From: a virus
Strand: one strand, 5' to 3'
Length of the DNA stretch: 24,135 bases
Virus record (IMG/VR): IMGVR_UViG_3300009409_000049
Location: 1-24,135 of that record
Part shown: in pieces, positions 1,709 through 21,645 of the stretch
Numbering within the stretch: position 1 is the stretch's first letter
How the letters are laid out: the number at the start of each line of letters is the position of its first letter
Position numbers and translations under genes: made by a program
The notes under the pieces: model-generated
What the model was told of the DNA's origin: nothing
Database searches by the model: none
The model's input: only the letters and a program-made list of their open reading frames with translations

Positions 1709-2389
1709 ATGGGCAACCTCGCAGACAAGATCGGACTGCTCGCATCTGGCGAGGCGAAGAAGATGAAGAAGAACATCGGCGAGATCAGTGTGCAACTCAC
1801 GCCGCTTCAGACAGACTACAAGCAGACACACATCAGCAACTCGATCGCACTGCTGAAAGAACAGCAAGACAGAAGACAAGCAGCACGCGACGCAGTCGAG
1901 GTCATCAGCGGCAGATGCTTCCCGATCGCTGCGATCTTTCAGGGTTCGTGCGTTCAGTGCGGCACAGTGTATCGTGCGTCTCGCGAGACGATCATCGACG
2001 CTGACTACTATCTGACGTACGACACAGACGCCGGCAAAGAGATCGCGACGATCGACTGTCGCGAGTGCACGATCGACGTGAAGCTGAAGCCGTACAAGTA
2101 CAGCAAGATCACGCCAGCAGTGCAGCACGCTGACCCGCCGATGAGCAAGACAGAGCAGTTCGCTTGCTTGTGCCCGAAGTGCGGCACGTTCTTGCTCGCC
2201 GATAGTGAAGACGTCGACGCTTCGACTGTCGTGCGAGACGAAAACGGTGACGAGAAGGTTCGTGTCGAGTGTGCTTGCTGCTCGTGCAGAGTGTTCGCTT
2301 ACGAGTTCGGCGGGTTCATCGAAGACGAAGAAGCGAAGAAGGCAGTGAAGCGAAAGATGATCTTGCTGAAGGGTGCGTGCGATGGCTGA
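1709..2389 (+). CDS. Double zinc-ribbon hypothetical protein
   Basis: The protein has 226 residues with two separate four-Cys clusters. The first is C81-x2-C84 with C117-x2-C120. The second is C155-x2-C158 with C190-x2-C193, and extra Cys at 153, 188 and 191. Both look like zinc ribbons of about 40 residues. The first 65 residues are predicted helical and charged, with QTDYKQTHISNSIALLKEQQ a likely amphipathic helix. A good ribosome site (AAAGGAG) lies nine bases before the ATG. Zinc ribbons in phage proteins often bind nucleic acid or host RNA polymerase, but nothing here shows which. The 3' end overlaps the next gene by eight bases. Confidence 0.75.
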   Translation: MGNLADKIGLLASGEAKKMKKNIGEISVQLTPLQTDYKQTHISNSIALLKEQQDRRQAARDAVEVISGRCFPIAAIFQGSCVQCGTVYRASRETIIDADYYLTYDTDAGKEIATIDCRECTIDVKLKPYKYSKITPAVQHADPPMSKTEQFACLCPKCGTFLLADSEDVDASTVVRDENGDEKVRVECACCSCRVFAYEFGGFIEDEEAKKAVKRKMILLKGACDG

Positions 2390-2702
2390 CTTGCATCAAG
2401 CAGACAAGATGCCGCGACTGATCAGCATGACGATGACGATCGATCATCACGGCTGCACGCTGTACGAGTACGTCACAGACGGGGCAGTGCCTGGGCGAGA
2501 CGACTGTGCTTGCAGGATCACGTACGGCAGCGCGAGCGACATCGAGCATGGGCACATGGTCAGGTACGCGACTGTCACGTACAAGTACAAGTCGCACGAA
2601 GAGTTCACAGAGTTGCGAGATCAAGTCGCAGCGATCACAGGGAACAAGTACAGCGTGCCCGTCAAGAAGAAGAAGCGACGCAAGAGAAAGATCGTACTGT
2701 GA
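2382..2702 (+). CDS. Hypothetical protein ending in basic tail KRRKRKIVL
   Basis: This is a 106-residue protein of unknown family. The ATG at 2382 is eight bases after AAGGG and overlaps the preceding gene; a GTG at 2373 is in frame but lacks a ribosome site. The body looks like a beta-rich domain (MTMTIDHHGCTLYEYV, MVRYATVTYKYKS). The last residues form a strongly basic tail, VKKKKRRKRKIVL. The next two genes end in closely related tails (KRGRKIIL and KRGRKVIL), although the rest of the proteins differ. The stop and the next ATG share a base (TGATG). Confidence 0.7.
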   Translation: MADLHQADKMPRLISMTMTIDHHGCTLYEYVTDGAVPGRDDCACRITYGSASDIEHGHMVRYATVTYKYKSHEEFTELRDQVAAITGNKYSVPVKKKKRRKRKIVL

Positions 2703-2998
2703 TGGGTGCACCAATACCGCAGATCAAGAAGTTGGATCAAGACTTGATCGATGCGATGACAGCAGTCGGAGACGCAGCGAAGGGAGCGAGCGTGTCTGTC
2801 GACGAGGCTGCTGCACTGTCAGTCGCAGCGTCGACGAGCAACGCAAGCGTCGAGCAGTTGTCGATCGCACTCAAGGTGCTCGTCGATCGCTACCCTGAAG
2901 AAGCAGAGCGTCTGCGTCAGTCGCTCTTGTCACGAGCGTCGAAGCCAGAGACAATAGAGTTCGAGCGACAGAAGCGTGGTCGCAAGATCATCTTGTGA
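2702..2998 (+). CDS. Hypothetical helical protein ending in KRGRKIIL
   Basis: This 98-residue protein is Ala- and Ser-rich and probably all-helical (LIDAMTAVGDAAKGA, VEQLSIALKVLVDRYPEEAE). It finishes with the basic tail RQKRGRKIIL. The start ATG overlaps the stop of the upstream gene by one base, so translation is probably coupled. The tail is shared in position and pattern with both neighbouring genes, which suggests that one partner recognises all three proteins. I do not recognise a family, and the size and composition would fit many small phage proteins. Confidence 0.7.
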   Translation: MGAPIPQIKKLDQDLIDAMTAVGDAAKGASVSVDEAAALSVAASTSNASVEQLSIALKVLVDRYPEEAERLRQSLLSRASKPETIEFERQKRGRKIIL

Positions 2999-3008
2999 GA
3001 GAGAACAG

Positions 3009-3716
3009 ATGCTTGACTTGAGCAACATCAACATGAAGAAGATCAAGGTCGACATCAAGAACGTCGACGACGCTGTGTTGAAGTCTGCACTCGCGAAAGC
3101 GAAGAAGACGTTGATCAAGAAGTTCGAGCAGGACGCCCACGCTCAAGCAGTCAAAGCAGCAGCAGCAGAGTCAGCAGTGAAGAAGTACAGCAAGAACTTC
3201 AGCGCAGCGTTCTTGGGGGCGTTGAGCAAGCTGTCGCAGCAAGAGCAGGAGAAGCTGCTCGAAGAGAGCGACGAGTACGGCGGGCTTGCTGTGCCGCCCG
3301 TCTTCGACGACATGATCATCTCGACGCCGATGCTCAAGGGCGAGGACTTCTCGCTCGTGCCAGCGCCGTCGAACGCAGATGCAGTGATCGCTGACACAGC
3401 AGAGATCAAAGACGATCACACGATAGGCGATCTCGCGTCGATGATCCAAAGCAAGTACGCAGAAGCACTCGCGAAGAAGATCGACGACGAGATGCTGCAC
3501 GGCGACGGGTCAGCGAAGACCCCGAAGATCGTGATGGGCGTCGACGTCGGTGCAGGCAAGAGCTTCAGCACAGTGCAGGCGAAGAACTGGGGGTGCGTCG
3601 TCGACAACGTGACGCACGATCAGATTCTCAACGCACTCGACGAGATCAAGCAAGAAGAGCCGAAGCAAGTCAAGCTGCCGCCCCGACAGAAGAGAGGACG
3701 CAAGGTGATCTTGTGA
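3009..3716 (+). CDS. Shortened HK97-type capsid-protein-like paralogue with basic tail
   Basis: This is a 235-residue protein. Residues 91-116 (from GGLAVPPVFDDMIISTP through LKGEDFSLV) align closely with residues 295-320 of the major capsid protein at 19912 (VPDAFDDMFITTP, LLHGELFPLV). Residues 152-167 (EALAKKIDDEMLHGDG) match EALMNWLDNQIANGDG at 399-414 of that protein. The segment between the two blocks is about 43 residues shorter than in the capsid protein. After the GDG loop only about 69 residues remain, against about 163, so most of the A domain appears to be missing. The N-terminal 90 residues are helical and Lys-rich. The C-terminus is RQKRGRKVIL, like the two genes before it. It could be a minor capsid component, an assembly modulator or a decaying duplicate. 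Confidence 0.7.
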   Translation: MLDLSNINMKKIKVDIKNVDDAVLKSALAKAKKTLIKKFEQDAHAQAVKAAAAESAVKKYSKNFSAAFLGALSKLSQQEQEKLLEESDEYGGLAVPPVFDDMIISTPMLKGEDFSLVPAPSNADAVIADTAEIKDDHTIGDLASMIQSKYAEALAKKIDDEMLHGDGSAKTPKIVMGVDVGAGKSFSTVQAKNWGCVVDNVTHDQILNALDEIKQEEPKQVKLPPRQKRGRKVIL

Positions 3717-4234
3717 TCGAGACTCAGCCATCTGGTGCAGTGTTCAGTTCGTGTCGCTTGTATCGCTACAAGCTTTGGCGCAACTGGTCGTTCGACTCTG
3801 CGTTGTTCCCGCAAGACAACTTCGCGTACGTTGCGTTCATCGGGTTGAACCCGTCGACTGCTGACGAGCATCAAGACGACCCGACGATCAGACGCTGCAT
3901 TAGATTCGCACGCGACTGGGGATATGATGCGATGGTCATGCTCAACTTGTTCGCGTACAGAGCGACAGAGCCTGCTGACATGAAAGCGATCGACGAGCCG
4001 AAGTGCGTGATCGCGAACAACGATTATGCGATCGCACAGACTGCACACGATGCAGCACTGACTGTCGCATGTTGGGGAGTGCACGGCGAACACAAGCAGC
4101 GAGGCGAACGAGTGCGAACGATACTCGACGAAGTCTGCACGCTGCAACACTTCGGCGAGACACGCGACGGGCACCCACGCCACCCGTTGTATCTTCGAGC
4201 AGACACTGCACCGACTGCGTGGTACAGATCGTGA
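3713..4234 (+). CDS. DUF1643 family protein
   Basis: The protein has 173 residues and the whole length fits the DUF1643 family. The pattern runs YRYKLWRNW, FIGLNPSTAD, DDPTIRRCIRFARDWGYD, NLFAYRATEP, ACWGVHG and HPRHPLYL. DUF1643 proteins occur in phages and bacteria and have no established reaction that I can cite. The conserved polar residues suggest an enzyme or nucleotide-binding role. The start is GTG at 3713, overlapping the stop of the upstream gene (TTGTGA); no better start fits, because the conserved block begins at residue 16. The stop overlaps the next gene's GTG in the same way. Confidence 0.85.
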   Translation: MIETQPSGAVFSSCRLYRYKLWRNWSFDSALFPQDNFAYVAFIGLNPSTADEHQDDPTIRRCIRFARDWGYDAMVMLNLFAYRATEPADMKAIDEPKCVIANNDYAIAQTAHDAALTVACWGVHGEHKQRGERVRTILDEVCTLQHFGETRDGHPRHPLYLRADTAPTAWYRS

Positions 4235-4359
4235 TCACACAGAAGCTGCTCGCTCTGTTGCTGCTCGTCGCGACGATGCTGCTGCCGCTCGTCGCTGTCG
4301 TCTCGTATCACGTCGGCGTGTGTGTCACACGTCAAGCACTCGACGTCGCGAACGACTGA
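4231..4359 (+). CDS. Single-span membrane peptide
   Basis: This is a 42-residue peptide starting at GTG 4231, which overlaps the DUF1643 stop as GTGA. It is almost entirely one membrane helix (LLALLLLVATMLLPLVAVVS) followed by a short polar tail ending ALDVAND. It is the last gene of the first operon; the repeated intergenic element begins immediately after its stop. Size and topology resemble small phage membrane peptides that act on the host envelope or regulate lysis, but no family is recognisable. Confidence 0.6.
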   Translation: MITQKLLALLLLVATMLLPLVAVVSYHVGVCVTRQALDVAND

Positions 4360-4360
4360 G

Positions 4361-4592
4361 CGAATCCGAGAATCTTCAGATCGACTCTCGATCGCACGCT
4401 GATCTGACGCGAATCTGTGCCATTTTAGAAAATAAATGGATCGACGTAACTCGTTGCTGTATATACACTTCAGCTATACAGTCACACCGAATCCAGATTA
4501 TCTTTCAAGATTCTGCTTGCAGACGACGAAGAAGACGTCATACTGAGCATGCAGTCAACGAAGCACACAGCACACGAACGGGAGACGAAACG
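4361..4592 (+). promoter_or_regulatory. Repeated intergenic promoter element, copy 1
   Basis: This is the first of three related elements (others at 5689 and 7787). The 5' part carries GAATCCGAGAATCT and an inverted repeat TCAGATC...GATCTGA (4376-4407). An A-rich block AGAAAATAAATGG follows. Promoter P1 is ATGGAT (4436-4441), 18-base spacer, TATATA (4460-4465). A dyad CTGTATA-N11-TATACAG (4457-4481) covers the -10 and start region. Promoter P2 is CTTGCA (4516-4521), 17-base spacer, CATACT (4539-4544). The leader ends GGGAGACGAAACG before the ATG at 4593. Promoters are by pattern only, but the spacing repeats in all three copies. Confidence 0.75.
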
Positions 4593-4778
4593 ATGACACT
4601 CGCAACACTCGCACACAAGATGATGCTGACCGTCACGCAAGCCGTCGCACTGCCCGCAGTGATCGACACTGCTGCTGAGTCACAGAACATCACACGCGAC
4701 GCCATGATCTCGCACTGCACTCGCAGCAGTGAAGTCTGCGAGTACCTCGCAAGCATCTGTCGCACTGTCACGAACTGA
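4593..4778 (+). CDS. Small hypothetical protein, first gene of unit 1
   Basis: This 61-residue protein of unknown family is Ala/Thr-rich (MTLATLAHKMMLTVTQAVALPAV) and has three Cys in its C-terminal half (HCTRSSEVCEYLASIC). GGGAGACGAAACG directly precedes the ATG and is the standard initiation cassette of this region. It is the first gene after repeated promoter copy 1. A small, orphan, promoter-proximal gene in a phage accessory block is typical of host-takeover proteins, but that is inference from context alone. Confidence 0.65.
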   Translation: MTLATLAHKMMLTVTQAVALPAVIDTAAESQNITRDAMISHCTRSSEVCEYLASICRTVTN

Positions 4779-5671: not shown

Positions 5672-5688
5672 TGACGTGAAGCGTCGAG

Positions 5689-5925
5689 CGAATCCGAGAA
5701 TCTTGATCGGACGCTCGATCGAGCAGCAGATTCTGCATCAATCTGAAGATTCTCAGAAAGTATTTTGGATCGCGTAAGTCGTTGCTGTATATACAGTTAA
5801 GCTATACAGAGCAGCGATCTGCGAACTTTCTCGAAAGATTTCGCTTGCAAGCGACGATCCATCTGTCATACTCACAAGTGATGAGAGTGATCAACGCAGA
5901 CAACTTCAACACACGAGACAAAACG
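5689..5925 (+). promoter_or_regulatory. Repeated intergenic promoter element, copy 2
   Basis: The order is the same as in copy 1. GAATCCGAGAATCT (5690-5703) pairs with AGATTCT (5728-5734), with an inner GATCG/CGATC, to form a stem-loop that could end the upstream transcript. AGAAAGTATTTTGGATCGCG follows. P1 is TTGGAT (5765-5770), 17-base spacer, TATATA (5788-5793). The dyad CTGTATA-N11-TATACAG spans 5785-5809, and its left part forms the perfect palindrome CTGTATATACAG. P2 is CTTGCA (5844-5849), 17-base spacer, CATACT (5867-5872). A long in-frame extension upstream of the next gene runs through this element and is not credible as coding. Confidence 0.75.
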
Positions 5926-7732: not shown

Positions 7733-7786
7733 TTGCGAGAGTTCGCACGCATGCAGCGTCTGATCGCGTTCGCGAAGAGCGACTGA
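7733..7786 (+). CDS. Possible 17-residue micro-ORF with TTG start
   Basis: AAGGAG (7718-7723) sits nine bases before TTG 7733. The frame encodes a basic amphipathic peptide (REFARMQRLIAFAKSD after the start) and ends at TGA 7784-7786, immediately before promoter copy 3. The C/A-rich leader and strong ribosome site match the genes of this region, which argues that it is translated. It is too short for composition tests. Confidence 0.45.
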   Translation: MREFARMQRLIAFAKSD

Positions 7787-8018
7787 GAATCCGAGAATCT
7801 GAGATCGAGCACTGTTCGAGCAGCAGATTCGCAGACAATCTTGCCGAATCCAGAAAGTATTTTGGACCGCGTAAGTCTGTGCTGTATATACACTTGCGAC
7901 ATACAAGACACGCAGATCGCGAGAATCTTTGAAGTTGACGCTTGCAGACGACGATCTGAAGAGTATGATCATCAGTGCAGTCAACGCAGCAACACGACAC
8001 GAACTGGGAGACGAAACG
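7787..8018 (+). promoter_or_regulatory. Repeated intergenic promoter element, copy 3
   Basis: Same order as copies 1 and 2. GAATCCGAGAATCT (7787-7800) has AGATTC (7825-7830) as the pairing arm. AGAAAGTATTTTGGACCGCG follows. P1 is TTGGAC (7862-7867), 17-base spacer, TATATA (7885-7890). The dyad here is CTGTATA-N11-CATACAA (7882-7906), with two mismatches in the right half. P2 is CTTGCA (7941-7946), 17-base spacer, TATGAT (7964-7969), the best -10 of the three. The leader ends GGGAGACGAAACG before the ATG at 8019. Confidence 0.75.
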
Positions 8019-8273
8019 ATGAAGACTCGAACGAACAGCACAGCGAAGCGACAGATGACGCAGAAGCAGTTCTTCGTCTGGCTCAACTTCTTTCGCGATG
8101 CAGAAGTTGTCATCGGCAACGGCAAGACGATCTGGGTGATCGAGGGTGGCAAGCACAGCAGCGACAAGGGCTGCGTCGTCTTCTTGTCTCGCATGCACCA
8201 GATCAACAAGTACAACAAGCCCGAGCGCGTCACGTACACTTGCAGCGAGACTCGTCTGCGACTCGCTGACTGA
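8019..8273 (+). CDS. Hypothetical protein, first gene of unit 3
   Basis: The protein has 84 residues of unknown family. A helical segment (QKQFFVWLNFFRDAEVV) is followed by what look like strands (KTIWVIEGG, KGCVVFLS, RVTYTCSE) and a basic linker (RMHQINKYNKPE). Three genes in a row in this unit encode small basic-to-neutral proteins with similar strand content, but no clear sequence identity is visible between them. GGGAGACGAAACG precedes the ATG. Confidence 0.7.
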   Translation: MKTRTNSTAKRQMTQKQFFVWLNFFRDAEVVIGNGKTIWVIEGGKHSSDKGCVVFLSRMHQINKYNKPERVTYTCSETRLRLAD

Positions 8274-11237: not shown

Positions 11238-12785
11238 TTAGAGTTCCGACAGCGTACACTTGCAGCCGTGCGTCGTCATGCGTTCGAGTATCACGGCGAC
11301 GTAGCGAGGGTCGATCTCGATGCCGTGACAGCAGCGATCACTCTGTTCAGCAGCGAGCATCGTCGTTCCGCTTCCGAGGAACGGCTCGAACACTCGCCCG
11401 CCGACCGGGCAGCTACTCACGATCGCTCGCGCCATCATCGCAACGGGTTTGGGTGTTGCGTGCCCGTGTCGCTCTTCGCCGACGACTCGCTTGAAGTCCC
11501 AGACGTCGGTCATGTTGTCGTGCGTGTTGTCGAAGTATGCGCGTGTCGCATAGAACGCTCGCTTCAGTTCGTCGTGCTCTCGCTTCAGTTCGTCGTGCTC
11601 TCGCTTCAGTTCGTCGTGCTCTCGCTTGAAGGCGTCGTGCTTGCATGCCTCTGCCTGAAGACGCTCATACTGTTCTCTGGTTGGGAACGACCACTGCGAC
11701 TTGCTGAACCAGTGATCTGCCATGCGAGGGTGAAAGCCGAAGAACTTCGCCACGTCCTTGTTAGACCACCCGCACTTGCGTCGCTCGCTGTCGAGGTACT
11801 CGCGCACGGACTCGAAGCCCTCCCAATAGTTGTCTGCGTTATTATTGAACCCTTGCTCGCCAAGCATGAAGAAGAGACATCGTTCACCCATAGGTGCGTA
11901 TTGGCGAAGCCCTGCCATCCCGTCTTTCCCCCAACTGGCCCCCGTGACTTGACTCCAGATGATCTCGTTGCGGAACGTCAGTCGTTCGCTGTCCTTCAGC
12001 CCGCCGACGTACCACAGTCGCCACAAGTCTTTAGCGTTGCCCCAGATGTACGCGCTGCCGTTGTCGTCAACGTGCGGGCGTGCTGTCGTCCACCATGCCA
12101 TCTGAAACGCATCAAGCTTCTCGCGGTACAGGTTGTCGTTCTGCACGCCATCATTCTCCTTGCCCATTCCGTACGGCGGGTCTGCGTGCACGAGTTGCAT
12201 CTTCTCGTCGCCCATCACTCGCTCGACGTCTTCGCTCTTCGTCGAGTCACCACACAGCAGACGATGCGTCTGCTTGCCTTCGATCACCCACAACTGCCCC
12301 GACTTCGTGTCCCACTCCTCTTGCAGTTCTGCTGCTCGATCAATCGGCGCTTCGTCTTCGACGATCGCGACTGGCGTCTCAAGCAGTTCAGCGATCTCAG
12401 TGTCATCGAAGCCGAGCGACGACAAGTCGAACTCCTTGTCGAACAACTCTGTGACGCCGCTGAGTTCTTCGAGTTGCTGAAGCAGCACGTCATCGTCCCA
12501 CTCAGAGAGTTCGCCCGTCTTGTTGTCGGCGATCGCATACGCCATCGCTTGAGTCGCAGTGAGATCAGTGCGCACGACGTTGATCGTGTCCCAGTCGAGT
12601 GCTTGCGCTGCGATGTACGTGCCGTTGCCAGCGACGATCGTGCCGTCTGTGTTCACTAAGATCGGGCGCTGCTGACCGAACTGCGTGAGAGACAGCTTGA
12701 TCGCGTCGATGTTCTTGTCTGGGTGTGCTCTCGCGTTGTGCGGGTCAAGCGTCAACGATGCGATCGGTACGTTCTCGATGTTCAT
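11238..12785 (-). CDS. ParB-like domain fused to a beta-class DNA methyltransferase
   Basis: The protein has 515 residues. Residues 1-95 are a ParB/Srx-like N-domain (GQQRPILVNTDGTIVAGNGT, then AIADNK). The methyltransferase follows with the catalytic DPPY at 202-205 and the S-adenosylmethionine site FLGSGTT at 469-475. DPPY before FxGxG is the beta-class order, meaning N6-adenine or N4-cytosine methylation. Between them, about residues 383-409, lies a run of REHDELK heptads likely to form a coiled coil. Phages carry such fusions to mark their own DNA; the recognition site cannot be read from sequence. ATG 12785 was chosen because AGGGG lies seven bases upstream; a GTG at 12833 would overlap the previous gene. 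Confidence 0.9.
   Translation of the reverse strand: MNIENVPIASLTLDPHNARAHPDKNIDAIKLSLTQFGQQRPILVNTDGTIVAGNGTYIAAQALDWDTINVVRTDLTATQAMAYAIADNKTGELSEWDDDVLLQQLEELSGVTELFDKEFDLSSLGFDDTEIAELLETPVAIVEDEAPIDRAAELQEEWDTKSGQLWVIEGKQTHRLLCGDSTKSEDVERVMGDEKMQLVHADPPYGMGKENDGVQNDNLYREKLDAFQMAWWTTARPHVDDNGSAYIWGNAKDLWRLWYVGGLKDSERLTFRNEIIWSQVTGASWGKDGMAGLRQYAPMGERCLFFMLGEQGFNNNADNYWEGFESVREYLDSERRKCGWSNKDVAKFFGFHPRMADHWFSKSQWSFPTREQYERLQAEACKHDAFKREHDELKREHDELKREHDELKRAFYATRAYFDNTHDNMTDVWDFKRVVGEERHGHATPKPVAMMARAIVSSCPVGGRVFEPFLGSGTTMLAAEQSDRCCHGIEIDPRYVAVILERMTTHGCKCTLSEL
11560..11640 (-). repeat. 21-bp tandem repeat encoding REHDELK heptads
   Basis: Three perfect copies of a 21-base unit (CGCTTCAGTTCGTCGTGCTC plus T on the + strand) span 11560-11622, with a diverged fourth at 11623-11640. 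Each unit encodes seven residues, REHDELK, inside the methyltransferase. Perfect DNA identity means the expansion is recent or still changing by slippage. Confidence 0.9.
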
Positions 12786-12802
12786 TGTGGCCCCTGTTGT
12801 GT

Positions 12803-13033
12803 TTATGTTGCGAGCAAGTACAGTCCGCGGCACACCCAGAACACAACGATCGGTGCAGCGAAGACTGCGCCGATGATGACACAGAGACAGCCGAACCCGT
12901 GAGACAGCGCCCCGCCGAACCCTCCGCTGCTGGTCATGGCTGCGTCCCTGAAGAAGATCACGCTGACACCCCAGAACGCGACGCCGACGAACGCGAGTGT
13001 CTTGCAGACGATGTGTGCTGTGTCGAGATCCAT
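12803..13033 (-). CDS. Small two-span membrane protein
   Basis: This is a 76-residue protein with two membrane helices, about residues 10-28 (KTLAFVGVAFWGVSVIFF) and 49-74 (LCVIIGAVFAAPIVVFWVC). A Gly/Ser-rich loop joins them. The ATG at 13033 lies two bases after the TAG of the gene before; the longer frame from 13114 is out-of-frame reading of that gene. No family is recognised. It is one of several consecutive small membrane proteins of the reverse operon. Confidence 0.7.
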   Translation of the reverse strand: MDLDTAHIVCKTLAFVGVAFWGVSVIFFRDAAMTSSGGFGGALSHGFGCLCVIIGAVFAAPIVVFWVCRGLYLLAT

Positions 13034-15581: not shown

Positions 15582-15872
15582 ATGCCATGCCTGCGATTAG
15601 CAATCAGACGGGTCTTCAGGTTCGTGCTTCACTGTGTCAGAGGCAGCGTTCTGCGCGTGCGTGTCGTCTTGTCGAAGGCAGTCGATCGCAACAGAGCGAC
15701 CGCGATCGAGAGTCTCGAAGCACGCATCGCTTCAGACAAGCTGATCATCCAGTCACTGCGAGACGAGAACTTGGAGATGGACTTCAGACATCAGCGACAA
15801 GTGTCGCGACTCAAAGCTGACATCGCTGTCGACGTTGCGAGAATGGTCAGCGCAGAGGGAGAACGACGATGA
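15582..15872 (+). CDS. Small coiled-coil protein before the portal
   Basis: An open frame of 96 residues ends in ATGA overlap with the portal gene. The second half is clearly helical and charged (AIESLEARIASDKLIIQSLR, MDFRHQRQVSRLKADIAVDV), a likely coiled coil. The first 30 residues are Arg-rich with atypical codons, so the true start may be a GTG or TTG near 15658-15672; none has a convincing ribosome site. The bases before it (15462-15581) carry only the two promoters. The position suggests a head-assembly accessory, but this is inference. Confidence 0.5.
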   Translation: MPCLRLAIRRVFRFVLHCVRGSVLRVRVVLSKAVDRNRATAIESLEARIASDKLIIQSLRDENLEMDFRHQRQVSRLKADIAVDVARMVSAEGERR

Positions 15873-18109
15873 CTGTTGCAAGCGAGTTCGCGACTTCAGT
15901 GCGCGATCGATGCAGAGCGAAAGAATTCAACGGCGACGCTGGCAGCAGCGCGTTGATGACGGGCGACAACTCAGCAGGCAGTCTGTTCAGTCAAGACGAC
16001 GCGAACGAGTACAACTATGCCTCGTTCAAGTCTCGCGTGTACTCAGTCATCAGACCGATCGCACAGCAGATCGCATCGCAACAGATCAACGTCGGCAGAC
16101 TCGTCGGCAGCGGTGGCGCTGCAAGACAGTTCGATCGCCCGACGAAAGAGTCTCTGCCTGACTCGTGCAAAGCGTTTCAAGAAGACATGGAGATCGTGCC
16201 TGATCACGTGCTGATCGATCGCTTCAGAGAGCCGAACCCTGTGATGCCGATGTGGCACTTGCAGTACAGCACGATCTGCTCGTATCAACTCACGGGCGTC
16301 ACGTATTACTGGATGCCAGAAGAGCAGGGACAGATCAACATCTGGCCAGTGCCGTCGACATGGATCACACCGAAGCACGACAAGGGTCACTTCGCAGAGT
16401 ACGAGATCAACCCTGGCGGATTCGGCAAGGGCATCACTCGCCCGTCTGAAGAGTTCGCACGCTTCGTGAACCCTGACCCTGCTGATCCGTTCGGGTGCAA
16501 GTCGACACTGAAAGCGCACGCACTTGCAGTCGCAGCAGACAACGCGATCGAGACAGCGCAGGTCGCTGCGTTTCGCAACGGCATCTTCCCGTCGCACGCG
16601 ATCGTGCTTGGCGACATCACAGACGTCGAAGGTGCGAACACGGGTCGCCCGACTCTGCTGAAAGAAGATCGCGATCGCATCACTCGCTCGATGATGGACA
16701 TGTACGGCGACGTGTATCAAGCAGGCACGCCGATGATTCTCGACGCACTGATCAAAGACGTGATCGATCTGTCGAAGTCGAACAACGAGATGGACTTCCT
16801 CGACTCAGGCAAAGCGACAGACTCTCGCATCAGTCGCGGCTGGGGTACGCCGTCAGCGATCACGGGCGAACTTGAGAACGTCAACAGAGCAGGCAGTGCA
16901 GTCGCTCAGACGCACTTCATCAACTTCACTGTGAACCCGTTGATCGAGTATATGTCGCAAGTGCTGACGCTGTTCGTCGCGCCGCGCTTCGCAGCGACTG
17001 GCGAGCGACTCGTCGTGTGGATCACGCCTGCACGCCCTGACGATCCCGAGAACACGCGAGCGAATTATCAGGTGCTCGCGAAGCATCAAGCGTGCAGCAA
17101 GAACGAGATGCGATCTGCGCTCGAAGGACTCGGCCCGCTCGTCGACGGCGACGTGATACCGAAGCCGATGAACCTCGAAGACGTGCCTGCTGTGCCTGAC
17201 AAGAGCACAGAGTCGAAGCGTAAGGTCACGCGAAAGATTCACTTGAAGCGACTCAAGTCGCTGACTGCTGATGGCATGGCAGGCAGATGGCTCAAGCAGC
17301 ACACGAAGATCGAAGCAAGCTATGTTGACGAACTCAGCGATCTGTTCGTCGAAGCAGGCAGCAGAGCAGCACAGCAGATCACTGATCTCGCGATAGGCAA
17401 GAGCGAGACGATGAGCGAAGCAGTCGCAGTTGCAGCAGCAGCGATCGGCGGCAAAGAGTTCGACGCGCAGATCATGGCGATCTCGACAGAGCACGTGCTT
17501 GGCTCGCTCGCGACTGGCGCTGTGTCTGAACTGAACGACTTCGAGGAAGCGAAAGCAGCAGCAGCGTTCTCTGCGGGTGACGTGCTGATCGAGTTGCCGC
17601 TTCCGATTCAGACTGCGATACAACACGAACTCACGACGATCATGATGCAGCCGTACTGGGGCGAGATCGCTGAGACAGTGCTGACTGATCTCGCTGGCAA
17701 AATATCTGCGGGCATCAATCAAGGCATGTCGACTCGCGAGATCGCACTGTCTGTTCAAGGGCAGAACGGCATGCTCGGCAGAGCAGCGAGCAAGCACAGA
17801 GCGATGCGCATCGCACGCACTGAAGTGACTGGCGCACTCAACGCAGGGCATCACACAGCACGTGCTGATCTTGTCTCTCAGGGCTTGATCAGACAGATGC
17901 AGTGGATGACTCTGATGGACAACTATACGCGAGGCACGCACGGTCGACTCAACATGAAGAAGACTTCAGCGAAGGGCATGTTCAACGTCGGCGGCACGAA
18001 AGCGCCGTACCCTGGGCACGTCGGACTGCCAGCACGAGAGCGCATACACTGTCGCTGCACTGCTGTGTCTGTCGTCGACCCTGACGCAGTCGTTCCGTTC
18101 GCACCATAA
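15869..18109 (+). CDS. Portal protein fused to a MuF-type head morphogenesis domain
   Basis: This is a 746-residue fusion. Residues 1 to about 430 are an HK97-type portal: SRVYSVIRPIAQQIASQQI, LTGVTYYWMPEE, IWPVPSTWITP and the C-proximal PSAITGELENVN, which is the usual 'lgvPp.llG' region. The portal forms the dodecameric ring through which DNA enters. Residues about 640-735 are a MuF domain with RIARTEV (647-653), D684-N-Y-T-R-G-T-H691 and the closing IHCRC (726-730). MuF proteins are minor capsid proteins, and fusions to portals are known. The middle (430-640) is helical. GGGAG precedes the ATG, which overlaps the upstream stop. Confidence 0.92.
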   Translation: MTVASEFATSVRDRCRAKEFNGDAGSSALMTGDNSAGSLFSQDDANEYNYASFKSRVYSVIRPIAQQIASQQINVGRLVGSGGAARQFDRPTKESLPDSCKAFQEDMEIVPDHVLIDRFREPNPVMPMWHLQYSTICSYQLTGVTYYWMPEEQGQINIWPVPSTWITPKHDKGHFAEYEINPGGFGKGITRPSEEFARFVNPDPADPFGCKSTLKAHALAVAADNAIETAQVAAFRNGIFPSHAIVLGDITDVEGANTGRPTLLKEDRDRITRSMMDMYGDVYQAGTPMILDALIKDVIDLSKSNNEMDFLDSGKATDSRISRGWGTPSAITGELENVNRAGSAVAQTHFINFTVNPLIEYMSQVLTLFVAPRFAATGERLVVWITPARPDDPENTRANYQVLAKHQACSKNEMRSALEGLGPLVDGDVIPKPMNLEDVPAVPDKSTESKRKVTRKIHLKRLKSLTADGMAGRWLKQHTKIEASYVDELSDLFVEAGSRAAQQITDLAIGKSETMSEAVAVAAAAIGGKEFDAQIMAISTEHVLGSLATGAVSELNDFEEAKAAAAFSAGDVLIELPLPIQTAIQHELTTIMMQPYWGEIAETVLTDLAGKISAGINQGMSTREIALSVQGQNGMLGRAASKHRAMRIARTEVTGALNAGHHTARADLVSQGLIRQMQWMTLMDNYTRGTHGRLNMKKTSAKGMFNVGGTKAPYPGHVGLPARERIHCRCTAVSVVDPDAVVPFAP

Positions 18110-18485: not shown

Positions 18486-19856
18486 ATGTCACAGACGGCT
18501 GAAGCAACGCAAGCAGAACTCGACGCGATGCAAGTCAAGCTTGCAGCAGAAGTCATCGATCGAGCGAAGTCAGGACACGCACCGCGATGGGGCGTCGGCA
18601 ACGCGACTGCGTATCTCAACGACATCAGCGGCTGCCTTGCAGGAGGCGTCTGCCCGACGAAGCTGCTCGGCAACAGCACACCCGCACAGTGGACGCAAGC
18701 GATCAAAGATGCAGAGAGTCGCTTGACGTACTGTGACCCAGAGATGGACGTGTTCGAGTTCGAGCACGATCTGAAGCGAACAGGCAAGAAGCTGACTGAA
18801 GGTTCAGTCATGGACTTCTCAGCGATCATCTCGACAGTCAAGCAAGATCGTGACGGCGACATACTCGTGAGCAAAGGTGCGTCAGTCGACAACAAGGCAC
18901 CGCTGCTCTGGCAGCACATGGCGTTCGAGCCGATCGGCATCGTGCGAGAGTCACGAGTGCAAGCGAAGAAGATCACGGGCAAGATGTCGATCATCGACTC
19001 GCCGCTCGGTCGCGACGCTGCACAGCTTGTCGAGTTCGGCGCACTGCGTATCTCGCATGGCTTTCGCGTGTTCGAGTTCGAGCCGATGGACAACGAAGAG
19101 CGAGGCTTCAAGATCACGAAGTTCGAGATCATGGAAGTGTCGCTCGTGTCTGTGCCGTCGAACACTGATGCAGTGATCACAGCGTTCTCTGCTGAGAAGC
19201 TTCATCACCCGATGGTCAAGCAGTGGGCAGGCGCGAAGTTCAGTGCACGCCCAGTGCAAGTGCCCGGCGCTGATCTCGAAGTCACGCCAGCGATCAAGAC
19301 GACAACGACGAACACGAAGAAGGTTGGCGACTGCGAAGAGTCAACGACTGTGATCGTCGAGCCGATCGGCATCGTCGCGCCGAAAGCAACAGCGAAGAAC
19401 GACTGCTCGTGTGACGTGAAAGCAGACGCGAGCACTGAAGACAAGATCGGCTTGCTCGATGTCTTGTTCGCGAGAGCGTTCACTGCTGAAGAGTTCGCAC
19501 TGATCGAGTCAGGCGACTTCGAGAAGCTGATCAAGGGCGGGCGAGCGCTCAGCAAAGCGAACGAGAAGCAACTGCGAGACGCGCTCGACATGATCAAGCG
19601 GATCACAGAGAACGATGACGCGACGCCCTCGATCAAGACTCTCGCCGTTGGCGCAGTCGCGAAGATCGAGAACGTCATCAAAGCAGTCGACCCAGAAGAG
19701 AGCGAAGCGAGTGCGAGTGAGTTGTTCGCGAAAGCGTTCATCGCACTCGACGGCGACGTCTCGACGATCAACACGTGGCTCGGTGTTCTTGAGACATCGA
19801 AGTCGCAACTCTTAGCACACCAATTCGACGAAGAACTCGAAGAGATGCTGAACTGA
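18486..19856 (+). CDS. HK97-type prohead protease with C-terminal extension
   Basis: The protein has 456 residues. Residues about 100-235 are the U35 prohead protease: MDFSAIISTVKQDRDGDI, PLLWQH144 with the catalytic His, KITGKMSIIDS, LRISHGF with the catalytic Ser190, and EIMEVSLVSVPSNTDA. It processes the capsid protein after assembly. About 220 residues follow, with a Thr/Lys-rich linker and a helical end (FAKAFIALDGD, LEEMLN) that may act as scaffold. The catalytic domain is preceded by about 95 unusual residues with Cys. GGAG lies eight bases before the ATG. Confidence 0.9.
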   Translation: MSQTAEATQAELDAMQVKLAAEVIDRAKSGHAPRWGVGNATAYLNDISGCLAGGVCPTKLLGNSTPAQWTQAIKDAESRLTYCDPEMDVFEFEHDLKRTGKKLTEGSVMDFSAIISTVKQDRDGDILVSKGASVDNKAPLLWQHMAFEPIGIVRESRVQAKKITGKMSIIDSPLGRDAAQLVEFGALRISHGFRVFEFEPMDNEERGFKITKFEIMEVSLVSVPSNTDAVITAFSAEKLHHPMVKQWAGAKFSARPVQVPGADLEVTPAIKTTTTNTKKVGDCEESTTVIVEPIGIVAPKATAKNDCSCDVKADASTEDKIGLLDVLFARAFTAEEFALIESGDFEKLIKGGRALSKANEKQLRDALDMIKRITENDDATPSIKTLAVGAVAKIENVIKAVDPEESEASASELFAKAFIALDGDVSTINTWLGVLETSKSQLLAHQFDEELEEMLN

Positions 19857-19911: not shown

Positions 19912-21645
19912 ATGAAACTTACTGCCGCCCTACGCAAGTGGGCAGTCGAGAACCTCGACATCAAAGCAGACGCGACTGACGACGAGATCAAGATCGCATT
20001 GAAGGCAGCGATGGTCGGTGACGAGCCGAAGCTGTCGCTTGAGAAGTTCGCTGAGTTGTCGCAGACGAAGAGTGCTGCGTCAGATCAGATGAAGGAGTTG
20101 ATCACGTCGTCGATGACGACTGCTGTTGAGCCGATCAACGAAGCGATCGCCAAGCAGGGCGAGAAGCTTGACGCTGTCATCGCAGACGTCGCTGAGTTGA
20201 AGACGGTCAAGGCTGGCGACGACGACGATGCAGACGCTGACGACGATGCAGACGACGATGCTGACGACGATGCTGACGCAGACGAAGCTGAGAAGCGCAT
20301 CGAAGCGATCGTCGAGAAGTCGCTCGCGAAGATGAACGCAGGTGCTGACGTCATCGGTGGCGAGAGCATCTCGCTGAAAGTCTTCGGCAACAGTGTTCGC
20401 GTCAAGGGTGCTCACGAGCAGTACAGCACGACGAAGACTGCGCTGACGATGCCTGAGCGATCGAAGGGCGGTCGCTTGAACGCGAACGCTGGTGGCCCAG
20501 TGATCAAAGAAAAGGGCGGCGCTCCGATGGACTGCCCGTCGCAACTCGACAACGCTGTCTGCGGTGCGTGGTTCAAGAGCATGTTCTCGAACTTGCACAA
20601 GTCGAACGGACTGCCGATCGGTCGCAACATGCGACTGACTGAGCACGACAAAGACTTGATGGCGTACTCGATCCGCGAGATGAAGTGGACGGGTCCGATC
20701 GGCACGGGTCGCGGCGAGCCGCAGCACTGGGTCAAGTCTCAGAAGCTGACGCCTGACTTGCAGAAAGCGCTGCTTGACGATTCAGGCAGTGGCGGTCAAG
20801 AAGCTGTGCCTGATGCGTTCGATGACATGTTCATCACGACGCCTCTGCTGCACGGTGAGTTGTTCCCGCTCGTCAACCTCGTGAACTTGTCGCAAGGTTC
20901 TTCGATCGATGGGTTCGCGATCTCGAACCCGACGATCAACTCGAACGAAGCCGAAGGCAGTGCGATCACTCTTGAGACGACCACGTCGTTCATCAGTGCT
21001 CTCGACACTACGATCTTCCCGTGCGCGGGTGCGATCGAGATCGGTGAAGACTTCGAGGACGATTCGCCAGCGAACATCGGGCAGACGCTCGGTCTGCTGT
21101 TCGGCGAGGCGTTGATGAACTGGCTCGACAATCAGATCGCGAACGGCGATGGAACGACTGAGCCGACTGGCATCTTCACGACGAGCGGTACGACTGTCAT
21201 CACGACGTCGAACGGCACGAGTGGTCCGTGGGTTGTCGGTGACGTCGAGCAGTTGCTGTTCGGTGTCAACAAGGCGACGCGAAGAGCGCTCGGTGATCGA
21301 AGCGTGTTCGTGATGAACGATACAACGTATCGTCGTCTGCGTGGCGTCAACGTCGGCTCGACTGACGCACGTCGCGTCTTCGGGATGGATCACGAAGCGT
21401 ACACTGTCCTCGATCGTCCTGTGAAGATTCAGGACGACATCGCTGACAATGACGCATGCTTCGTCAACATGGCGTACTACCGTCTCTACCGTCGTCTCGG
21501 CATGCAGTTGCGTTTCGAGAACACGGGACAGACGCTCGGCTTGAAGAACACGAAGTTGGTGATCTTGCGGGCTCGCTTCGGTGGACAGATGACGCTTGCG
21601 TCGGCTGTCGCTGAGACGAACACTGCGCCAGTCGTCAACTCGTAA
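19912..21645 (+). CDS. Major capsid protein, HK97 fold, with long N-terminal delta domain
   Basis: This 577-residue protein forms the icosahedral shell. Residues 1-290 are a large N-terminal region: helical and coiled-coil (KFAELSQTKSAASDQMKELI), with an Asp/Ala tract at 103-124. It is probably removed by the protease encoded just upstream, but the cut site is not evident. The HK97 fold begins near 299 (VPDAFDDMFITTP), the spine helix and G-loop are EALMNWLDNQIANGDG (399-414), and VFVMNDTTYRRL lies in the A domain. Arg codons in the C-terminal half are mostly CGT and Gly often GGT, unlike the neighbours, consistent with very high expression. AAGGGA precedes the ATG. Confidence 0.93.
   Translation: MKLTAALRKWAVENLDIKADATDDEIKIALKAAMVGDEPKLSLEKFAELSQTKSAASDQMKELITSSMTTAVEPINEAIAKQGEKLDAVIADVAELKTVKAGDDDDADADDDADDDADDDADADEAEKRIEAIVEKSLAKMNAGADVIGGESISLKVFGNSVRVKGAHEQYSTTKTALTMPERSKGGRLNANAGGPVIKEKGGAPMDCPSQLDNAVCGAWFKSMFSNLHKSNGLPIGRNMRLTEHDKDLMAYSIREMKWTGPIGTGRGEPQHWVKSQKLTPDLQKALLDDSGSGGQEAVPDAFDDMFITTPLLHGELFPLVNLVNLSQGSSIDGFAISNPTINSNEAEGSAITLETTTSFISALDTTIFPCAGAIEIGEDFEDDSPANIGQTLGLLFGEALMNWLDNQIANGDGTTEPTGIFTTSGTTVITTSNGTSGPWVVGDVEQLLFGVNKATRRALGDRSVFVMNDTTYRRLRGVNVGSTDARRVFGMDHEAYTVLDRPVKIQDDIADNDACFVNMAYYRLYRRLGMQLRFENTGQTLGLKNTKLVILRARFGGQMTLASAVAETNTAPVVNS
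20218..20289 (+). repeat. Asp/Ala-coding microrepeat in the capsid gene
   Basis: GACGACGATGCAGACGCTGA-like units repeat imperfectly and encode the DDDDADADDDADDD tract (capsid residues 103-124). The repeat could vary by slippage. The acidic tract joins the N-terminal coiled coil to the next helical segment. Confidence 0.75.

Follow-up and report, generated by a model that had tools for sequence, protein, structure and literature searches.

A mosaic gene related to the major capsid protein, outside the head cluster of a phage known from metagenomes

A gene run with a common basic tail

The window, the whole 24,135-nt stretch of DNA analysed here, belongs to a phage known from metagenomes only. 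In its left part lies a run of five genes whose adjacent starts and stops overlap or almost touch (Table 1). The fourth of these, P0001, carries sequence related to the major capsid protein (MCP) of the same phage, whose gene lies far downstream next to that of the prohead protease.

Table 1. Coordinates of the gene run, of the segments of P0001 and of the head genes with which they were compared
Feature	Position	Strand	Remarks
First gene of run, Cys-pair protein (zinc-ribbon-like)	1709..2389	+	KRKMIL near C-terminus
P0004	2382..2702	+	tail KKKKRRKRKIVL
P0003	2702..2998	+	tail RQKRGRKIIL; weak tape-measure-like similarity
P0001, mosaic mini-MCP gene	3009..3716	+	235 aa, ATG start, TGA stop
P0001 aa 21-73, long confident helix	3069..3227	+	AF2 pLDDT about 81-95; TIGR01554 stretch aa 10-106
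P0001 aa 74-117, MCP N-arm block	3228..3359	+	BLASTP, synonymous-site comparison
P0001 patch matching prohead-protease gene, at missing E-loop	3328..3389	+	peptide SLVPAPSNADAVI; 62-bp DNA match
P0001 aa 138-216, MCP spine helix, GDG G-loop, possible A-domain start	3420..3656	+	Pfam, TIGR01554, hhalign
P0001 C-terminal tail RQKRGRKVIL	3684..3716	+	9/10 identical to P0003 tail at 2966-2998
DUF1643 gene, start overlaps P0001 stop	3713..4234	+	PF07799 E 1e-41
Prohead protease (Peptidase_S78)	18486..19856	+	PF04586 E 1e-10; stretch matching P0001 = 19117-19178
MCP, parent-type protein	19912..21645	+	PF05065 E 1e-21; Foldseek HK97 E 7e-9
MCP N-arm	20743-20874	+	
MCP spine helix	about 21061-21165	+	

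The initial annotation had described P0001 as a truncated MCP paralogue set among neighbours with a common C-terminal tail, and was right on both counts: the tails of P0001 and P0003 differ at a single position of ten, and that of P0004 is similar. Among viral contigs, a degenerate DNA pattern for KRGRK[IV]IL followed by a stop was found in this phage only. Homologues of P0003 and of the first gene of the run were likewise found, in viral contigs, in the same phage only, and neither P0004 nor the first gene had a match among phage records. In general pattern, and as a resemblance only, the P0001 tail recalls the MuA-type ClpX degron, a C-terminal RRKKAI (PMC8138137): in KRGRKVIL, too, hydrophobic residues at the C-terminus come after a cluster of basic ones, but the sequence is a different one. 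Perfect AAGATnATCTT palindromes occur at 2354 and 2984, both in tail-coding regions, and nowhere else in the window.

P0003 gave weak but repeated matches to tape-measure families (PF10145, E 0.01; PHROGs 28, 5493, 4704 and 991), and nine controls, eight shuffles and a reversal, gave no tape-measure match. The registers of these alignments conflict, and the best shuffles score near P0003 on the profile of the relatives' tape measures, so that P0003 is at best weakly suggested to be a tape-measure fragment. The tape-measure gene of this phage is not within the window; contigs reaching further to the right were sought to recover it, and none was found.

Elsewhere in the window, three similar intergenic repeats (4346-4596, 5686-5809 and 7770-8022; 74-83% identity) have the core CGTAAGTC..TGCTGTATATACA, and both longer copies terminate with the leader GGGAGACGAAACGATGA. 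They are possibly phage-specific promoters or leaders; sigma-70-type sites showed no enrichment in the region. An Rfam search returned nothing. The gene at 73-828 has an HTH-like N-terminal region and a match to PHROG 645, a family with the annotation 'RNase E' (E 8e-12). At 11238-12833, on the minus strand, a ParB-like N-terminus is fused to an adenine-specific DNA-methyltransferase domain, and the 746-aa portal protein (15869-18109) has an SPP1 gp7/MuF-like domain at its C-terminus.

Homology to the MCP and the parts that are absent

Two blocks of P0001 had been noticed to match the MCP in the same order, and this is borne out. BLASTP aligns aa 74-117 with the MCP at 23/44 identical residues (E 5e-10). 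With a profile of 14 clade MCPs, hhalign gives a single colinear alignment of aa 73-171 (97.1%, E 7.4e-11), which takes in the spine-helix/G-loop block (about 132-171). Profile searches with the 235-aa protein also matched capsid families. NCBIfam TIGR01554 (HK97 MCP) scores 27.6 bits, a marginal pass of the curated cut-off of 27.5, in two colinear segments: aa 10-106 align with profile positions 30-127, and aa 138-216 with about 200-268. The spine-helix block is matched independently by Pfam Phage_capsid (aa 126-176, E 0.0018), at 18.1 bits and thus under the Pfam cut-off of 24.2, and by the major head protein family PHROG 10 (E 5e-5). An N-arm and then a spine helix, in MCP order, are thus found by BLASTP, TIGR01554 and hhalign taken together. 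At the DNA level the P0001-MCP match beats all codon shuffles (0/1000; fitted p 3e-6). Given the BLASTP, Pfam, PHROG, TIGR01554 and clade-profile matches, these comparisons of sequence confirm that the homology of P0001 to this phage's MCP is real and not due to chance.

The motif PLLHGELFP, invariant in 14/14 MCPs compared, reads PMLKGEDFS in P0001, with 4/9 residues different, and in a tree P0001 falls on a very long branch whose position is not resolved. Like HK97-family MCPs (TIGR01554, PF05065), it has a pre-N-arm helix, an N-arm, a spine helix and a GDG G-loop. The helix at aa 21-73 occupies the place of the MCP delta (scaffold) domain, with little sequence similarity to it. A match between the P0001 N-terminus and the methylase gene was heavily gapped (p 3e-4 before correction) and is not relied on.

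Unlike HK97-family MCPs, P0001 lies outside the head cluster, bears a protease-like patch and a basic tail, and lacks several parts of the fold. In TIGR01554, neither positions 128-199, which cover the E-loop with its flanking strands, nor positions 269-385, which cover the C-terminal P-domain strands and most of the A domain, have a counterpart in P0001. The earlier observation that the A domain seems missing therefore holds for most of that domain; its start may remain (to aa 216), and the E-loop is gone too.

Structure prediction was carried out for both proteins. The AlphaFold2 model of P0001, built from a shallow and gapped alignment, has a pLDDT of 57.7 and a pTM of 0.31; only helix 21-73 and some of the helix after it are modelled confidently, and a helix at 139-164 is predicted at moderate confidence. 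A fold search with this poor model found no HK97 match and no meaningful match in the PDB, whereas the model of the phage's MCP from the same kind of alignment (pLDDT 60.5) does match HK97 capsids (E 7e-9). Since the P0001 alignment was shallow and gapped, its poor model is weak evidence taken alone. Added to the loss of the E-loop, of the P-domain strands at the C-terminus and of the greater part of the A domain, it leaves the capsid fold proposed for P0001 in the initial annotation without support.

The same evidence bears on the suggestion that a truncated paralogue could join the shell as a minor subunit or vertex form. T4 gp24 is a vertex protein and a paralogue of gp23 that has kept the whole HK97 fold. 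P0001 is likewise a second MCP copy in one phage, but without the whole fold. Its MCP homology, just over the curated TIGR01554 cut-off, is what such a role has in its favour; however, the parts needed in the lattice are absent, the model is not HK97-like and MCP-invariant residues are changed, so that a minor shell subunit is very improbable.

A patch matching the prohead-protease gene, and the age of the pieces

When the genes of the window were compared in all 351 pairs, the best local DNA match was P0001-MCP and the next best P0001-protease. The second of these, overlooked in the initial annotation, pairs 3328-3389 with the end of the prohead-protease domain at 76% identity over 62 bp, and the peptides so paired are SLVPAPSNADAVI/SLVSVPSNTDAVI. 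At aa 113-127 all identical residues (10/10) use the same codon, with a chance of 2e-4 given the residues. The DNA score was reached by none of 1000 codon shuffles of P0001 compared with all sense genes, and against the protease gene alone the fitted p is 1.6e-5, for a match that is short (15-21 residues). Because the motif SLVPAPSNADAVI is conserved in the proteases of nine relatives, the prohead-protease gene is the likely source of the patch.

P0001 thus resembles Peptidase_S78 prohead proteases (PF04586, TIGR01543) in a 13-residue motif from the end of their domain, with similarity at the DNA level to the phage's own protease gene. Unlike them, it has the motif only: neither P0001 nor the patch fragment has an S78 profile match, and the catalytic domain is absent. 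The patch makes P0001 a mosaic, more than a plain truncation of the MCP, and we reject the latter on account of the patch and the loss of the E-loop.

The two borrowed pieces differ in how far their codons have diverged. In the MCP block 14/23 identical residues share a codon where 11.4 are expected, which places synonymous sites near background. This small excess, set against 10/10 in the patch, suggests that the MCP ancestry of P0001 is older and that the protease patch looks younger.

We also compared codon bias, which is 0.345 bits/codon in P0001, 0.364 in the MCP gene and 0.377 in the protease gene, a comparison that is not wholly frame-specific (the P0001 +1 frame scores 0.23) and in which a recent mosaic of coding fragments would give the same outcome. 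After simulated neutral drift of 0.25 substitutions/site, the bias had fallen to about 0 bits and the frame stayed open in 9% of cases. With its frame open and its codon bias intact, P0001 is unlikely to be in advanced pseudogene decay, which disfavours the earlier suggestion of a decaying duplicate.

A related possibility is that P0001 is a functionless relic of recombination, in which MCP and protease pieces came to lie in a non-head operon and stayed open by chance or youth. P0001 is indeed a patchwork from other genes of the same genome, absent from 13 related viral contigs, with a poor fold model and altered MCP-invariant residues. However, near synonymous saturation indicates that the MCP block is old, while frame and codon bias remain intact and both ends of P0001 form tight operon junctions. 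We regard a relic as unlikely, though a serious contender.

Distribution and possible role

A second contig, assembled from a different IMG sample, also carries the locus; over 12.4 kb it shows three differences, all outside the P0001 ORF. This identity excludes an assembly chimera of one sample and is no measure of selection. An artefact of assembly or frame choice might be suspected, as the data are all from metagenomic contigs; the contig from the second sample refutes single-sample chimerism, and with the locus present there we reject an assembly artefact and consider an artefact of either kind highly implausible.

The 13 related viral contigs (records up to 104 kb) have one MCP each, with MCPs about 33-49% identical. 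In the DNA searched of these contigs, all possibly fragments, there was no P0001-like gene and no second MCP copy. In loci from a Porticoccaceae MAG and a Pirellulales MAG, the stretch fetched had an MCP and no P0001-like gene. Searches for a P0001 homologue found none in genome contigs and none in annotated phages, where one MCP match was at chance level. In the collections searched, P0001 is therefore restricted by sequence to this phage, in the window and the second contig.

The origin and anatomy of P0001, that is, its homology to the MCP, colinearity, missing parts, protease match and tail, are well supported by these comparisons. As an overall explanation, which we hold to be about evenly poised, P0001 would be an intact, lineage-specific accessory gene that combines fragments of the MCP with a protease patch and a tail, and whose product acts by contact and not as a subunit. 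The MCP gene would have been duplicated from the N-arm through the spine helix and perhaps as far as the first part of the A domain; the duplicate would have lost the E-loop and everything further downstream. A short stretch of the prohead-protease gene would then have been copied into the E-loop gap, and P0001 would carry the basic tail common to its operon neighbours.

We infer that P0001 is translated together with its operon, and that its product could not hold a lattice position; an expressed product that is not a shell subunit is somewhat probable. Its helical N-terminus, N-arm and spine helix may bind MCP assembly intermediates, so as to modulate assembly or to serve as a chaperone-like decoy. 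The basic tail may direct P0001 and its neighbours to one common partner. Since the MCP parts kept in P0001 could bind such intermediates, an assembly modulator is our leading guess, and action by contact with them is a tentative mechanism.

A host-facing role would be another use for the same parts. The MCP is known to trigger the defence system CapRel directly (PMC9712102), so an MCP mimic encoded in a non-head operon might serve as a decoy for sensors of newly made MCP, or as a superinfection factor. The retention of the MCP N-arm and spine with loss of the lattice parts would fit, as would the weak resemblance of the upstream P0003 to another virion protein, the tape measure. However, such a mimic could equally set off the sensor, and we consider this role improbable. 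The literature was searched for phage decoys made of truncated capsid protein, and nothing relevant emerged. Still more speculative is a reading of the whole run, 1709-4234, as a dedicated system of small virion-protein mimics, one of them the MCP derivative with its protease patch and another a fragment resembling the tape measure. Each would bear the same basic C-terminal tag for one partner, be it a protease, a membrane or nucleic acid, and the mimics would either steer assembly or disarm host sensors that recognise virion proteins.

If made, the product of P0001 would be an MCP-derived protein without lattice-forming parts, kept away from the head operon. It would provide a natural test for which MCP segments give assembly contacts or alert MCP-sensing defences. 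The patch and the common tail would show a small phage gene built from pieces of the same genome, and even if functionless, P0001 would still be a well-marked case of in-genome gene patchwork.
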